Assembly: GCF_000708675.1 (NCBI RefSeq)
Contig: NZ_JELR01000001.1
Span: 558,001 to 622,000 of the forward strand
DNA: 64,000 nucleotides
Direction of reading: 5' to 3'
Origin: Microbulbifer sp. HZ11
GTDB taxonomy: Bacteria > Pseudomonadota > Gammaproteobacteria > Pseudomonadales > Cellvibrionaceae
Under the pieces are notes generated by a model. That model saw only the letters and a program-made list of their open reading frames with translations. It ran no database searches and was not told where the DNA came from. Both the position numbers and the translations under genes were made by a program. Positions 1,128 through 29,672 of the stretch are shown here, in pieces; position 1 is the first letter of the stretch, and the number at the start of each line of letters is the position of its first letter.

Positions 1128-1466
1128 GTGCCCACCGACAACACCCGATTACCCCTGATCGGCGGTATCGCCGCCGCCATCGGCGCCGGACTTTGTTGCG
1201 CCGGCCCCTTCGTTCTGCTGTCCCTGGGGATCAGCGGTGCCTGGATCGGCAACCTGACCCTGCTGGAGCCCTACCGCCCGCTGTTTATCCTGGCGGTACT
1301 GACACTGTTCGGCTGGGCCGGCTGGAAGGTGTTCGGGCCCTGCGCGCCGGACAGCGCCTGTACCGCGCCATGGGTACGCCGTCGTCGCCAGATCCTATTC
1401 GTGCTGGCGGCACTGGCCGCGGCCCTGCTGGTGACAAGTAACTACTGGATTCCGTGGATCGCCTGA
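1128..1466 (+). CDS. merT: MerT mercuric transport protein
   Basis: A 112-residue, three-helix inner-membrane protein that takes Hg(II) from MerP into the cytoplasm. The first helix carries the vicinal cysteine pair (GAGLCCAGPF) and the cytoplasmic loop carries the second pair (FGPCAPDSAC), both diagnostic for MerT. The start is GTG at 1128 behind a purine-rich GGGAGAGG ribosome-binding site; the longer frame from 1077 would start inside the operator and is rejected. It lies 40 bases before merP in the same operon. No merA follows, which leaves the fate of imported mercury open. Confidence 0.93.
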   Translation: MPTDNTRLPLIGGIAAAIGAGLCCAGPFVLLSLGISGAWIGNLTLLEPYRPLFILAVLTLFGWAGWKVFGPCAPDSACTAPWVRRRRQILFVLAALAAALLVTSNYWIPWIA

Positions 1467-1505
1467 TCTACCCATCGCTTCAGACAACACCGAGGAGAAA
1501 GCACC

Positions 1506-1793
1506 GTGAAAAACATCCTGATTGCCATGACCCTGCTTACCGCCAGCCTGTCCGCCCAGGCCGCAACGCGCACCGTGACCCTGGATTTGCCGACCATGAA
1601 CTGTGCCATGTGCCCCATCACTGTAAAAAAGGCACTGGACAAGGTCGAGGGCGTGCGCAAGGCGGAAGTCAGCTTCGACGATAAGCGCGCAGTGGTGACC
1701 TTCGACGAAAGTGCCACTAGCACTGAGGCGCTGGTCAAGGCCACCACCAATGCCGGTTTTCCGTCGACACTCGCCGCGAAGACCGCGCAGTGA
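1506..1793 (+). CDS. merP: MerP periplasmic mercury-binding protein
   Basis: A 95-residue protein with a cleavable signal peptide (hydrophobic core followed by SAQAA) and one heavy-metal-associated (HMA) domain. The metal site is MNCAMC, about residues 33-38, matching the MerP consensus. It binds Hg(II) in the periplasm and passes it to MerT. The 3' end overlaps the next gene: the TGA stop at 1791-1793 shares bases with a GTG start at 1790, implying translational coupling. The length is usual for MerP. Confidence 0.94.
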   Translation: MKNILIAMTLLTASLSAQAATRTVTLDLPTMNCAMCPITVKKALDKVEGVRKAEVSFDDKRAVVTFDESATSTEALVKATTNAGFPSTLAAKTAQ

Positions 1794-2023
1794 GCCAAGT
1801 GCAATTGCAATCGCAAATCACCTGCCCCCACTGCGGCCACCAGAAGACAGAAACTATGCCCACCGACGCCTGCCAGTGGTTCTACGAGTGCGAGCAGTGC
1901 CGCTTGCTGCTGAAACCGCTGCCCGGCGACTGCTGTGTCTACTGCTCCTACGGCACCATGCCGTGTCCGCCGGTGCAATTGCAGAGTGGTTGCTGCGGCG
2001 CCGCGGGAAACAATAAAAAATGA
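1790..2023 (+). CDS. GDCCVxC-domain protein at the end of the mer operon
   Basis: A 77-residue Cys-rich protein with two CxxC/CxxH-like knuckles (CPHCGH and CEQC) and the signature GDCCVYCSYG, then a CCG C-terminus. I recognise this as the GDCCVxC domain family, some members of which are selenoproteins; this copy uses Cys throughout. It starts at GTG 1790, overlapping the merP stop. Family members often sit next to merRTP genes. A role in thiol-based mercury binding or reduction is inference; no biochemical function is known to me. Confidence 0.8.
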   Translation: MSQVQLQSQITCPHCGHQKTETMPTDACQWFYECEQCRLLLKPLPGDCCVYCSYGTMPCPPVQLQSGCCGAAGNNKK

Positions 2024-2150
2024 AAAAGCGGCATTCCGTCAGGTGACGGAGTGTAGCGAAATTCAGTAACCGACGGCGGTGGGCACGGCGATCCAGTAGG
2101 AGATAGTAATCGCCGCTGCCGCCATCAGTCCGCCCATTCCACCCGCCACT

Positions 2151-2362
2151 TCACTGGCTGCGCCCGAGCAGGTACTTCAGCAGCGCCAGTATCCCCAGCA
2201 CCATCGGCGCGATCAGCAATATCACCAGCAGGCCGCAGGCGAACATCATCCAGCCGCTCATCATCATGCCGTGGTTTTCCATCATCCCCTGCGCCAGTAC
2301 CAGCGCTGGGAAAGCGCCATCAGTGCCATTAGCAGGACGGCTTTCAGAGTATGCTGTTCCAT
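2151..2362 (-). pseudogene. Small Met-rich membrane protein downstream of cusA, apparently frameshifted
   Basis: ATG at 2362 has a good AAGGTG ribosome-binding site and opens MEQHTLKAVLLMALMAL, a signal-peptide-like start, but this frame stops after 26 codons. One missing base around 2301-2312 would join it to a second frame: LVLAQG, then the Met-rich MMENHGMMMSGWMM and one transmembrane helix ending LLGRSQ. The repaired product would be 70 residues. The internal ATG at 2285 could also give a 44-residue protein by itself. Methionine clusters and the place directly after cusA suggest a copper-related role (inference). The rest of 2024-2150 holds no convincing gene. Confidence 0.5.
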
Positions 2363-2393
2363 GGTGTTCACCTTTCTCTCGATTGGGTTGTGA

Positions 2394-5300
2394 TTACTGC
2401 CTTTCCTCATTGTTGCCGGTTTCCTGCTTCTGTGGCCCCGTTACCAGGGCCGGCAGTCCCCGGCCGCGCCAGAATGAAAAGATGGCCGGGAAGACCATTA
2501 GCACCAGAATCAGGGCTGAGCCCACACCGCCGAGCATGGGTGCAGCGATGCGCTTCATCACGTCGGCGCCGCTGCCGTTCGAATACATGATCGGCACCAG
2601 GCCCATGAACAGCGCCAAGCCGGTCATCAGCATGGGGCGAATGCGGTGGCTGGCGCCGGTCACTATGGCCGCGGTCAGGTCCGCGCGGCTCTTGAGCAGC
2701 CCCTGGCCGCGGTAGTCACGCCAGGCAATATCCAGGTACAGCATCATCAAGAGCCCCAGCTCCACCGCCAGGCCGGCCACCGCGATCATGCCCACGGCCA
2801 CCGCCACGGAGAGGTTGTAGCCCAGCGCCGAGAGCAACCAGATGCTGCCGATCAGCGAAAACGGCAGTGCGGTCATCACCACAAGGGTCTCGATCATCGA
2901 TTTGCGGTGCATGAACAGCATGAAGAAGATCACGAACACGGTAAGCGGCACCAGCACCTTGAGACGCGCCTTGGCACGCTCGAAGTAGGTGAACTGTCCG
3001 GCCCACTCTAGGCGATATCCGGGTGCCAGCTGCACCTTTTCCCCCACCACCTGTTTCGCCAGTTGGACATAGTCGGCGATGCCGATCTCGTCGCTGACGT
3101 CCGCGAACACGAAACTGACCAACTGCCCGTCCTCGTTGCGCAGCGCTGGTGGGCCGGTGCGGAATCTGATATCCGCTACCTGGGTGATGGGGATCTGCGC
3201 ACCGGTGGCGGTGGTGACGAAGACCCGTTTCAGGGCCTCCAGGTTGTCGCGGTATTCGCGCGCATAGCGCACCAGTATTCCGTAGCGTTCGCGGCCCTCG
3301 ACCGTCTCGCTGACGCGGGCGCCGCCCATGGCGGCTTCAATCACCGCCTGTACATCGTCCACGTTGAGACCGAAGCGCGCCGCCGCCTGGCGGTCGATAT
3401 CGAAATCCAGGAAGTAGCCGCCGGTGGCGCGCTCGGCGAAGGCGCTGCGGGTGTAGGGTGCGGTACGCGGGTCCTCGAGCAGCGCGCGCTCAATATCCAC
3501 GCCGGTCTGCTCGATAGTGATCAGCTCGGGGCCAAATATCTTGATTCCCAGCGCCGAGCGGATACCGGTGGCCAGCATTTCGGTGCGCGTCTGGATCGGC
3601 ATCCACCAGATGTTGGGCATGCCGGGAAAACGCATGGCGGCGTCCATCTCGCCGATCAACTTGTCCCAGGTCATGCCCTCGCGCCACTCACTTTGCGGCT
3701 TGAGCATGATATTGGTTTCCACCATTGACAGCGGCGCCGGGTCCGTGGGGCTGGTGCTGCGACCGACCTTGCCAAAGACCCGCTCCACCTCGGGGAATTT
3801 CTTCAGTTCCCGGTCCATGGTCTGCATAACCCGCGTAGCCTCCTCGATGGAAATACCGGGCAGTGCGGTGGGCATGTAGAGGATGCTGCCCTCGTTGAGC
3901 GGCGGCATGAATTCGCTGCCGAGGCTGCGGTAGATGGGCACCGTGGCCACGAGAGCCAGCAGTGCGCCGATCACCACGGGCCAGCGCCAGTGCACCGCGA
4001 ATCTCACCACCGGTGCATAGGCCGATTTCAGCCACTGGTTCAAACGACTGCGATCGCCGCGGATGCGCCCCTTGATCAGCAGCACAGCCAACGCCGGGAT
4101 CAGGGTCACTGACAGCAGCGCGGCGAAGAACATGGAGTAGGTCTTGGTGTAGGCGAGCGGTTTGAATAACCGGCCCTCGGTCCCCTCCAGCGCAAACACA
4201 GGGACGAAGGACACAGTAATGATCAGCAGCGAAAAGAAAATGCTCGGGCCCACCTCCTGCATCGCTGAAATAATGGCGCGGGTTCTGGGCTCACCACTTA
4301 GCTTCTCGTCCTGCAGCCGCTTGTGGACGTTATCGATAATGACAATAGCTGCATCCACCATCGCACCTATGGCCACGGCGATACCACCGAGAGACATGAT
4401 GTTGGCGGTCAATCCCTGGTAGTACATGGGGATGAACGACAGCAGAATGGCGATCGGCAGGGTGATGATGGCGACGAAGGCCGAGCGCGCATGCATCAGG
4501 AAGAGGCCGATCACCAGGGACACGATCAGTATCTCTTCGATCAGTGTGTGACTCAGGGTGTCGATGGCGCGCTGGATCAGGCTGGAGCGGTCGTACACCG
4601 GTACTATCTCCACGCCATCGGGCAGACTGCTTCTCAGCACTTCGATGCGCTGCTTGACCCGCTCAATCACGTCCAGGGCGTTCTGACCGTAGCGCATGAC
4701 CACTATGCCGCCCACGGTGATGCCCTCACCATCGAGGTCAGCCTGGCCCCGTGCCATGGCCGGGCCGAGGCTGACATTGGCGACATCTGCCACGCGGATA
4801 GGTACGCCGCCGTCGCCGAGGCCAATTACCACTTCCTTCAAGTCTTCGATGGATTTCACGTAGCCGCGGCCCCGAATAAACTGCTCGTGGCCGGCGATTT
4901 CCAGCACACGCCCACCCACATCCCGGTTGGAATCGCGCACGGCCATGGTGACCTTGTGCAGGGGGATGCCGTAGGAGGCGAGTTTATTGGGGTCGACGTT
5001 GATCTGGTATTCCTTGACGAAACCGCCCACCGACGCCACTTCCGCAACTCCCGACACAGACTCGAGGGCGTAGCGCAGGTTGAAATCCTGCAGGCTGCGC
5101 AGGTCCGCCAGACTCTGATTGCCGCTCTTATCCACCAGCGCATACTGGTACACCCACCCGACACCGGTAGCATCCGGCCCTAAGGTCGGGCGCACGCCGT
5201 CCGGCAGCCTGGGCGCGGCCGAATTCAGATACTCCAGCACCCGCGAGCGCGCCCAGTACATATCGGTGCCGTCTTCGAAGATGACGTAGACGAAAGACAG

Positions 5301-17111: not shown

Positions 17112-17558
17112 ATGAATCATATTCAGCCAGACCAGGCTTCGCTCTCGGAAGATAAACCTCTGCAACAGGCCAGACTGTCCGGAGATCCGAACATTCTCGA
17201 CCAGTTGCTGGCACCGCCGGAGGCGACCAGCTTCGGTATTGCTGCAAGAGTTATCGATGTGCTGGAACAACGGATTGGAAAGGCATCTCTGGCAATTCGC
17301 CCGGTGGCATCTGACCTCAGTATGTCTACCCGGACGCTGCAGCGCCGTTTGCAGGAACACAACCTGAGTTTTGCCTCTCTGCGTGATCATGTTCGTTTCC
17401 GCCATGCAGTGCACTTCCTTAAAGACACTGCACTCAGCGTCGACGGCATTTCCCGTATTCTCGACTTTTCTGACAGAACCAGCTTTACCAGTGCATTCAA
17501 GCGTTGGACGGGTATGTCACCAACCGGTTATCGCCGCCAGGTAAGACAGCGCTTCTAA
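17112..17558 (+). CDS. Short AraC-family regulator (DNA-binding domain only)
   Basis: A 148-residue protein whose C-terminal 95 residues form the double helix-turn-helix AraC/XylS domain. The first HTH region is VASDLSMSTRTLQRRL, the second VDGISRILDFSDRTSF, ending in the family signature FTSAFKRWTGMSPTGYRR. The first 50 residues have no effector-domain features. Usual AraC regulators are about 300 residues, so this is either a SoxS/MarA-like stand-alone activator or a truncated protein. It starts with ATG behind AAGGAG. The target is unknown. Confidence 0.85.
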   Translation: MNHIQPDQASLSEDKPLQQARLSGDPNILDQLLAPPEATSFGIAARVIDVLEQRIGKASLAIRPVASDLSMSTRTLQRRLQEHNLSFASLRDHVRFRHAVHFLKDTALSVDGISRILDFSDRTSFTSAFKRWTGMSPTGYRRQVRQRF

Positions 17559-22641: not shown

Positions 22642-22778
22642 GTTACACCTTGTGATTGGAAGGCTTGTATTTGATTATCGTGCCAACTTCGCCAAACAGT
22701 AGCTTAAACCTCTGTGGGTGGCGAAGGATGATTTCCGGCGTACCGCAAATTTTTCATCCGGACTTTGATTATGGCAAG

Positions 22779-22822
22779 AAACCGAATTATTATTCAACAA
22801 ATACCGAATAATGATTCGGTTT
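22779..22822. promoter_or_regulatory. Paired 17-bp inverted motif in the puuA-puuB intergenic region (candidate operator)
   Basis: Left arm at 22779-22795 and right arm at 22806-22822 (GAATAATGATTCGGTTT) are inverted copies with one mismatch, separated by 10 bases. The right half also contains CCGAAT-AATG-ATTCGG (22804-22819). It lies 28 bases before the puuB start. A third copy precedes the TonB receptor gene at 24259. Confidence 0.65.
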
Positions 22823-22849
22823 TAGCGAGGATGATTTTGGAGATACTCG

Positions 22850-24157
22850 ATGTCCGCTAGCGGAAGCATTACCAGATTGCACGGCCATACCGATTCCTAT
22901 TATGCGGCCAGTGCAAACCCCACTCCGGAATACCCGTGCCTGGAGGGCGAGGTGACAGCGGATGTGTGCATTATTGGTGCGGGGTATACCGGCCTTTCGT
23001 CCGCGCTCCACCTTGCCGAGCGCGGATACAAGGTGGTTGTCCTCGAAGCGGAGCGCGTGGGCTGGGGGGCTTCCGGGCGCAACGGCGGCCACGTGGGTGT
23101 TGGTCAGCGCAAAGGTCAGGAAGAGCTCGAAAAAATGCTGGGCAGGGATACCGCCAGAGCACTGTGGGATATGGGCCTGGAAGCGGTGCAACTCGTGGAG
23201 CACCTGATAAACCGGCACGGTATCCAGTGCGACCTGAAGCGCGGCATTATGCATTTGGCGGCCAAAAAGAGTCACGAGGCCGAGCTCCGCCAAGAGGTCG
23301 AATTGCTCAACCAGCGTTATGGCTATGAGGACATGCGATACGCCAACCGGGACGAAGTGGCTGATCTCGTCGGTTCGGATCGCTTTTTCGGCGGGCAGAT
23401 AGATTCCGGTTCGTTGCACCTGCATCCACTTAATTATGCGCTCGGCCTTGCCGATGCCGCGCGGGCCGCAGGTGTCCTGTTTTTTGAACACAGTCGGGTC
23501 ACAGGGTACGTCAGCGGCAGCCCCTGCGTAGTGTCCACAGAGCATGGGCGGGTGAGTGCGGCGAATATCGTCCTTGCCTGTAATGGGTACCTGGGCAAAC
23601 TGGAGCCGCGTATGGCCGGGCGTATTATGCCCATCAACAACTTTGTGCTGGCCACAGAGCCTCTGGAGGAGAAGCTGGCACGAGAATTGATAGCGAACGA
23701 CTACGCGCTGCAAGACACGCTGTTCGTGATCAATTATTGGAAATTGTCCGGAGACAACCGTCTGATTTTCGGCGGCGGCGAAAATTATTCATCGCGCTTT
23801 CCTCGAGATATTCGCGGGTTTGTACGGAAGTACATGCTGGAGGTCTACCCACAGTTGGCCGGTACGCAGATTGACTACGGTTGGGGCGGTACTCTGGCGA
23901 TCACTATGAATCGAATGCCGAGTATTGGCAGGCTGGAACCGAACGTCTACTACAGCCAGGGGTACTCTGGGCACGGTGTGCCGACAGCGACGTTTGCCGG
24001 AAAAATTCTTGCGGAAGTGATTGCCGGTACCGAAGAGAGGTTTGATATATTGTCGCGCATTCCAACGCCAAGTTTCCCGGGGGGGACACTGCTGCGTTGG
24101 CCAGGACTGGTAGCAGGAATGCTCTATTACAGCTTATTGGACAAGTTGGGGCGATAG
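22850..24157 (+). CDS. puuB: PuuB-type FAD-dependent gamma-glutamylputrescine oxidase
   Basis: A 435-residue FAD-dependent oxidoreductase of the DAO superfamily. The dinucleotide-binding motif is DVCIIGAGYTGLSSALHLAE (about residues 38-57), followed by the GWGASGRNGGHV flavin segment characteristic of PuuB and related amine oxidases. The C-terminal flavin motif includes YSQGYSGHGVPTATFAGK. It would oxidise gamma-glutamylputrescine, the product of the divergent PuuA, in putrescine breakdown. The start is ATG at 22850. The intergenic region carries a candidate operator. Confidence 0.9.
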   Translation: MSASGSITRLHGHTDSYYAASANPTPEYPCLEGEVTADVCIIGAGYTGLSSALHLAERGYKVVVLEAERVGWGASGRNGGHVGVGQRKGQEELEKMLGRDTARALWDMGLEAVQLVEHLINRHGIQCDLKRGIMHLAAKKSHEAELRQEVELLNQRYGYEDMRYANRDEVADLVGSDRFFGGQIDSGSLHLHPLNYALGLADAARAAGVLFFEHSRVTGYVSGSPCVVSTEHGRVSAANIVLACNGYLGKLEPRMAGRIMPINNFVLATEPLEEKLARELIANDYALQDTLFVINYWKLSGDNRLIFGGGENYSSRFPRDIRGFVRKYMLEVYPQLAGTQIDYGWGGTLAITMNRMPSIGRLEPNVYYSQGYSGHGVPTATFAGKILAEVIAGTEERFDILSRIPTPSFPGGTLLRWPGLVAGMLYYSLLDKLGR

Positions 24158-24258
24158 GGATCCTGGAAGTCTACAGTTCGCGGCTTCATCGACAGCGCCG
24201 GTGTCCCGGTGTTGCGGCACCGTGTTTCCAGTGGTTTTCGGGGTCAAAAAATAAAGTT

Positions 24259-24275
24259 GAATAATTGTTCGGTTT
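24259..24275 (+). promoter_or_regulatory. Third copy of the puu-locus 17-bp motif, before the TonB receptor gene
   Basis: GAATAATTGTTCGGTTT differs at two positions from the right arm at 22806-22822. It lies 94 bases before the receptor ATG. Recurrence at both intergenic regions of this locus supports a shared regulator. Confidence 0.6.
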
Positions 24276-24369
24276 GTGGAATAACAGACCGAGCAGTTTG
24301 ATTACTGGGGCCGTCCTAAGCGGTATCACTGGACACAAACCCGATAAAAATAACCCACGGGGAGTTACG

Positions 24370-28607: not shown

Positions 28608-29672
<1,065 letters not shown>

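Follow-up and report, generated by a model that had tools for sequence, protein, structure and literature searches.

Two described regulators of gamma-glutamylation, PuuR and PauR, are of the XRE-cupin type (PMC7901475, PMC9397018). PuuR of Escherichia coli represses the puu gamma-glutamylation genes and is released from its site by putrescine (PMC9397018, PMC7901475); PauR of Pseudomonas aeruginosa is likewise a repressor, with palindromic sites, and acts on scattered gamma-glutamylation genes and divergent operons (PMC7901475). In Streptomyces coelicolor the gene of the negative regulator EpuRI adjoins that of an amine ligase resembling glutamine synthetase, and the protein binds the promoter of an aldehyde dehydrogenase gene as well (PMC6529630, PMC8998196). 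Polyamines are regarded as an important component of marine dissolved organic matter (PMC8437039). In the open-licence literature of PubMed Central we found neither a TetR regulon for gamma-glutamyl-amine catabolism nor the operator reported below. Here we describe a locus of Microbulbifer sp. HZ11 in which three palindromic sites are very probably the operators of a TetR-family protein, which would co-repress a ligase, an oxidase, a TonB-dependent receptor and, elsewhere in the genome, a PuuC-like gene and a membrane protein gene until induction by an amine.

The window, by which we mean the whole stretch of 64,000 nucleotides that was analysed (C1 558001-622000 of a 4.2-Mb genome), carries the gene order GlnS (-), DAO (+), receptor (+), TetR (+), and the TetR gene lies directly 3' of the receptor gene, where the first-pass annotation had placed it, its reading frame starting 114 bp past the receptor stop (Table 1). 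The names puuA and puuB given there to the first two genes are approximate: these are indeed a glutamine-synthetase-like and an FAD oxidase gene, but GlnS lies below the PuuA equivalog cut-off, scoring 202.2 bits against 650 for the NCBIfam gamma-glutamylputrescine synthetase model NF045547. The top NCBIfam model for DAO is L-pipecolate oxidase, at 212 bits with a cut-off of 600. The linked regulator is of the TetR_N/TetR_C_15 type and not of the PuuR/PauR XRE-cupin type, its N-terminal TetR_N helix-turn-helix (PF00440) scoring 44.5 bits against a cut-off of 24. Searches of PDB sequences returned general relatives of the ligase, TetR and the receptor; scans of the window and of locus L088 with Rfam gave nothing at gathering scores, and a plasmid search with the intergenic region gave two weak, irrelevant matches (E 0.6).

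Table 1. Genes, predicted promoters and predicted operators of the locus, in window coordinates
Feature	Position	Strand	Remarks
GlnS, glutamine-synthetase-like, presumed gamma-glutamyl-amine ligase (puuA of the first-pass annotation), 444 aa	21307..22641	-	Pfam Gln-synt_C 350.9 bits
DAO, FAD-dependent oxidoreductase (puuB of the first-pass annotation), 435 aa	22850..24157	+	Pfam DAO 245 bits
TonB-dependent outer-membrane receptor, 789 aa	24370..26739	+	Plug and beta-barrel domains exceed cut-offs
TetR-family regulator, predicted regulon repressor, 226 aa	26854..27534	+	TetR_N and TetR_C_15 exceed cut-offs
Predicted DAO promoter, TTGATT-17-TATTAT	22765..22793	+	TTGATT-17-TATYAT in 36/36 full-class loci
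Predicted GlnS promoter, TTGAAT-18-CATAAT	22768..22797	-	Pattern in 35/36 full-class loci
Predicted receptor promoter, TTGAAT-17-AATAAC	24257..24285	+	TTGAAN-17-RATAAS in 34/36 full-class loci
Predicted operator 1, ACCGAATTATTATTCAAC	22781..22798		23.8 bits; overlaps DAO -10 and GlnS -35/spacer
Predicted operator 2, ACCGAATAATGATTCGGT, perfect palindrome	22803..22820		26.6 bits; near predicted DAO transcript start
Predicted operator 3, GTTGAATAATTGTTCGGT	24256..24273		22.7 bits; upstream of TonB receptor, over its -35 and spacer

Three copies of a 17-bp motif had been noted in the window, and all fit GAATAATNNTTCGGTTT with 0 mismatches, at 22779-22795 (-), 22806-22822 (+) and 24259-24275 (+); the one and two mismatches counted among them are correct and fall at N positions. 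The motif makes up most of an imperfect palindrome of 18 bp with two-fold symmetry, AYYGAAT-N4-ATTCRRT, and operators 1 and 2 are 22 bp apart from centre to centre, or about two helical turns. When the window was scanned with a position matrix trained on 38 distinct congeneric sites of GlnS/DAO and receptor promoters, the window's own included, the three sites were the only positions above 8 bits. The 4.2-Mb genome holds four exact copies, three in the window and the fourth on another contig, and at up to 2 mismatches it holds 11 matches against 4 for a reversed control pattern. The count within the window at up to 3 mismatches is indecisive and forms no part of the support, since the 4 matches found, against 1.16 expected, are unremarkable (at least 4 in 6 of 100 shuffles).

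Forty-eight congeneric genomes were divided into 36 with TetR and receptor ('full'), 5 with TetR and no receptor, and 7 without a TetR ortholog, receptor presence being scored at the DAO locus; a TetR ortholog (at least 68% identity) is found in 41 of the 48. The motif pattern with at most one mismatch occurs in 37 genomes, and the reversed control gives two matches in all 48 together. All 36 full-class genomes have a site of at least 10 bits before DAO and 33 of them a second such site, and a receptor site of at least 10 bits lies 88-101 bp before the start in 35; because the GlnS/DAO and receptor promoters supplied the training sites, these counts are a description and not a test. Site 2 is absent in G005, G023 and G033 and site 3 in G005, all of the full class, and the scoring upstream of DAO left out G007, in which GlnS and DAO lie on one strand and have diverged. 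Alignment of the GlnS/DAO gap (the first such alignment excluded four receptor-less rows and L085) reveals a conserved block of about 60 bp amid diverged DNA, with mean column conservation over 28 congeneric rows of 0.96 at site 1 and 0.85 at site 2, and of 0.48 and 0.55 in the 40 bp to the left and right; throughout the full class the conservation resembles a footprint and the geometry of the sites hardly varies. Two further observations concern the loci compared. A second TetR paralog, 40-43% identical, is present in L086 (G024), L087 (G034) and at G068:C78:302187-302822, and in L086 and L087 the same stretch holds a TonB receptor gene distinct from the present one (about 30% identity). On the GlnS strand of L074 (G016), beyond the GlnS 3' end, an 837-aa frame at 1128-3641 resembles, by eye, a fusion of carrier protein, thioesterase and cytochrome P450, and the other loci compared contain nothing similar to it at E<=1e-20.

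The neighbourhoods of further pattern matches yielded three unlinked genes, outside the training set, that have the operator before them. As the genes were picked because the motif had been seen before some of them, their counts test its generality and not its discovery, and their informative part is the absence of the site in the 12 genomes that are not of the full class. A gene for a PuuC-like aldehyde dehydrogenase is present in all 48 genomes and carries the operator in 34 of the 36 full ones (all except G023 and G033, with G032 scored separately), in none of the 5 receptor-less ones and in none of the 7 that lack TetR; in the genome of the window the site is at C2:957914-957931. The best NCBIfam match of the enzyme (G035 protein) is the PuuC family PRK09847, at 670.5 bits and thus below the equivalog cut-off of 850. 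The second gene, detected at E<=1e-20 in 37 genomes, codes for a 279-aa membrane protein; 35 of the 37 have the operator (it is absent in G005 and G007), or 35 of the 36 full-class genomes; the site is at C2:153191-153208 in the genome of the window and stands 171-172 bp upstream in G011, G019 and G030. The third, for an AptA-type omega-aminotransferase, is found at E<=1e-180 in 12 of the 48 genomes, with no match at that threshold in the genome of the window; its operator reaches at least 15 bits in 10 of the 12 and 7-8 bits in the other two, and the G028 protein belongs to the AptA family by its score of 706 bits against NF052567 (cut-off 500). The regulon predicted here is wider than the one first proposed, to which it adds the aldehyde dehydrogenase, the membrane protein and the aminotransferase.

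Several other palindromes were met in these genomes. The promoter of the aldehyde dehydrogenase gene (C2:956358-957851; L164) contains a near-invariant TTGATTTGTGATCACA, which 47 of the 48 genomes have ahead of PuuC; the TGTGATCACA palindrome within it lies in the -35/-10 spacer, persists where TetR and the operator have been lost, and is possibly the site of a second regulator. At C2:1796629 (L088 7506-7647, C2 about 1796505-1796646), a palindrome AACCGAA..TTCGGTT about 320 bp before an arginine-decarboxylase-like gene has beside it a GC hairpin, whose T-run faces that gene, and a weaker second site. The arrangement occurs in five genomes (counterparts L346, L347, L348 and L354); the centre of the palindrome differs from that of the operator, and the element is possibly another TetR operator or else a leader/attenuator. 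A palindrome of 21-23 bits at C2:1083494 (L089 6495-6512), with a counterpart in the near relative G021 (L345 3771), lies about 270 bp before a 563-aa gene whose link to the pathway is not evident. The candidates L349-L353, each from one genome, lack a shared context and were set aside, as were the other 2-mismatch sites followed in the genome of the window and eight relatives, which lie in coding sequence or by genes without an evident link to the pathway.

What the regulon serves is a separate question. Neither GlnS nor the aldehyde dehydrogenase attains the curated cut-off of gamma-glutamylputrescine synthetase or PuuC, respectively, so that the gene names are approximate and putrescine is a putative substrate, and TonB receptors are normally devoted to ligands that are too large or too scarce for porins. 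Both points favour a bulky monoamine or amine-containing ligand over putrescine or free polyamines, an alternative that is compatible with control by TetR and that we regard as quite possible, if somewhat short of probable. It is opposed by the top NCBIfam family of the aldehyde dehydrogenase, which is PuuC, and by a PuuD-like hydrolase, as in the Puu route, in locus L269 (179 bits against the PuuD cut-off of 266). That locus unites the membrane protein, GlnS, the hydrolase, DAO, PuuC, TetR and a receptor in one cluster, with sites of 16.2 bits in the GlnS/DAO gap and 20.6 bits before the receptor. Elsewhere too the genes of the membrane protein and GlnS occur together: they share one stretch in L250, L254 and L308 and lie near each other in G007, and in L305 the partner is a more distant relative of GlnS. 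Within the genus, the receptor (scored at the DAO locus) and the membrane protein, though unlinked, occur together in 36 genomes and are missing together from 11, the 47 compared being those other than G007. For the membrane protein, searches of Pfam and NCBIfam at E<=0.001 and of PDB chains at E<=1 gave no match; its homolog in Dasania (L308), when modelled (5 sequences, mean pLDDT 72), shows six long helices and a small strand-containing part, and the model gave no structural match at E<=0.001. A role of this protein in uptake is a hypothesis, and we propose tentatively that it and the receptor may together bring an amine ligand across both membranes by a route dedicated to it, before the ligand is gamma-glutamylated, under a TetR regulon spread among marine Gammaproteobacteria. 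If this is true, a TonB-dependent receptor and a new family of membrane proteins act in amine or polyamine nutrition.

Beyond the genus, a TetR profile search was followed through its best 80 of 490 relatives, 69 of them outside Microbulbifer, and 53 of these 69 loci have a divergent GlnS/DAO pair that passes our filters (a divergent synthetase/oxidase pair, identity cut-offs and a gap of 25-1100 bp), which the other 16 fail. Within this sample of the best 80 of 490, every one of the 53 gaps contains a site that scores 16 bits or more, 52 beat all 60 shuffles, and none of 53 control pieces of equal length inside DAO reaches 10 bits; the 1.2 Mb of the 69 loci contain 112 positions of at least 15 bits, of which 94 fall in the gaps and 18 outside them, 14 of the latter upstream of TetR or of a relative of DAO, PuuC, GlnS or the receptor and 4 not. 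Oceanospirillum, Neptuniibacter, Amphritea, Marinomonas and SAR92/Porticoccaceae are represented besides Microbulbifer among the matches listed, and the predicted switch is found in many further marine bacteria. The first-pass annotation had held that its proposal would fall if the motif occurred at random frequency across the genome and were not conserved upstream of orthologous genes; neither is the case, as judged by the genome counts and by the congeneric and distant orthologous promoters. In four loci without an adjacent GlnS (L294, L301, L302 and L304) TetR is itself preceded, at 65-117 bp, by two sites with a spacing of 22-23 bp, and a strong site is absent from 5 of the 8 loci in which TetR is present and no other pathway gene was detected (L246, L249, L251, L311 and L312). 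One of the four loci with the pair, L294 (8225-14716), has a distant DAO (-), TetR (+) and a TonB receptor (+), with the operator pair before TetR, an arrangement that suggests a repeated pairing of this TetR type with receptors.

Genomes that lack TetR retain GlnS or DAO orthologs, and in none of the 6 that were scored does a site before DAO reach 10 bits. A tree of DAO groups the 11 genomes that lack receptor or TetR (G007 apart) in a single clade (100/99), within which TetR is absent at three places (G004/G010/G064, G006/G067 and G029), read here as three losses; as 11 of the 12 non-full genomes belong to one clade in a one-gene tree, the Fisher values calculated here exaggerate independence and do not count as independent evidence. 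In G029 (L093 5711-5973) a TetR remnant persists between DAO and a 5'-nucleotidase gene, as two stretches of about 41% identity covering residues 137-226, and a decayed operator lies upstream of DAO; G006 has two degenerate sites in the old positions, 22 bp apart. Among the TetR-positive genomes without receptor the DAO site reaches 10 bits in 3 of 5, barely so in G009 and G014 (10.3 and 10.6), and is below 10 bits in G003 and G036; together with the absence of the PuuC site from all five, these weak sites indicate that TetR can persist with weakened or changed operators.

The sites, their positions and their conservation, the co-occurrence with TetR and the co-decay are observed in the sequences. 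TetR is linked to the operators by this co-occurrence, by their decay where it is missing, by the 53 shared clusters outside the genus and by the operators before lone TetR genes, and the earlier suggestion of one regulator common to the receptor and the gamma-glutamyl-amine genes gains support from the conserved operators and from the co-occurrence and co-decay of TetR. It is improbable that the palindromes are bound by another regulator (the AraC-type protein encoded at 17112, the LysR/CysB-type protein encoded at 28698, or a PuuR-like XRE-cupin protein encoded elsewhere) and that TetR is a bystander. AraC-like and CysB-like genes are neighbours in many Microbulbifer loci too, but outside the genus the operator-bearing GlnS/DAO pair accompanies TetR (in loci found through TetR, from the best 80 of 490 relatives), the operator pair precedes some TetR genes that stand apart, and in L090, L091 and L093 TetR is lost and the operators have decayed while CysB is still nearby.

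Promoter patterns were sought across whole loci, and their positions in the window are those of Table 1. The TTGAAT half of sites 1 and 3 serves also as a -35 box, which is what the motif would offer if it were a promoter-associated or structural element, such as a conserved -35 region, and not an operator. This is very unlikely, as the placement of the palindrome varies with the predicted promoter, being past the -10 for PuuC, in the spacer for the membrane protein and over the -35 for the receptor, and as in 6 of the 7 TetR-less genomes (not G007) the TTGATTTGTGATCAC element of the aldehyde dehydrogenase promoter is kept while the palindrome past the -10 is lost. A position over the -10, spacer or -35, or just past the -10, favours repression, as expected for a TetR protein; the aminotransferase site, just upstream of the apparent -35, is in a less typical position for a repressor. 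Since TetR follows the receptor and the gap between them has no matrix match, site 3 probably controls tetR as well. Chance repeats kept by common descent among close relatives would accord with the unremarkable window count at up to 3 mismatches, but the sites stay while their flanks diverge, and a chance origin is contradicted by the whole-genome counts, the matrix scan, and the presence of the site in non-training promoters and in 53 of 53 distant gaps (best 80 of 490 relatives).

Under control by TetR, a TetR dimer would bind each 18-bp palindrome, so that operators 1 and 2 would block both divergent promoters between GlnS and DAO, and operator 3 that of the receptor and probably tetR. Accumulation of an amine or its gamma-glutamyl derivative would release TetR from the DNA, upon which the ligase, the oxidase and the receptor would be made, along with the unlinked PuuC-like aldehyde dehydrogenase and the membrane protein. 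In this scheme we infer the binding by TetR, its action as a repressor and not as an activator, and the nature of inducer and substrate. The operator and its predicted regulator now mark genes of gamma-glutamyl amine breakdown in many marine Gammaproteobacteria, and the operator provides a criterion for finding members of the pathway; two candidates for the uptake step are named here.

Repressors of the TetR and QacR type have a TetR_N domain and two-fold operators that overlap promoters, with paired sites and divergent targets; the locus described here differs from them in that its predicted targets are amine catabolism and outer-membrane uptake, over unlinked promoters. TetR would fill the role of PuuR and PauR without being homologous to them. 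PauR has a site before its own gene, as do some of the TetR genes studied here, but it is an XRE-cupin protein, and its regulon, as given in the available part of the account, includes a transporter with no mention of a TonB receptor (PMC7901475). PuuR is an XRE-cupin homolog of PauR, and the puu genes lie in one cluster, for which the available parts of the accounts mention no outer-membrane receptor (PMC9397018, PMC7901475). EpuRI and EpuRII belong to the Actinobacteria, and the available parts of those reports give no operator sequence (PMC6529630, PMC8998196). Relative to these systems, the locus presents an unusually well-supported predicted regulon in which TetR control would take the place of XRE-cupin control and would also take in a receptor of the outer membrane and a new membrane protein.
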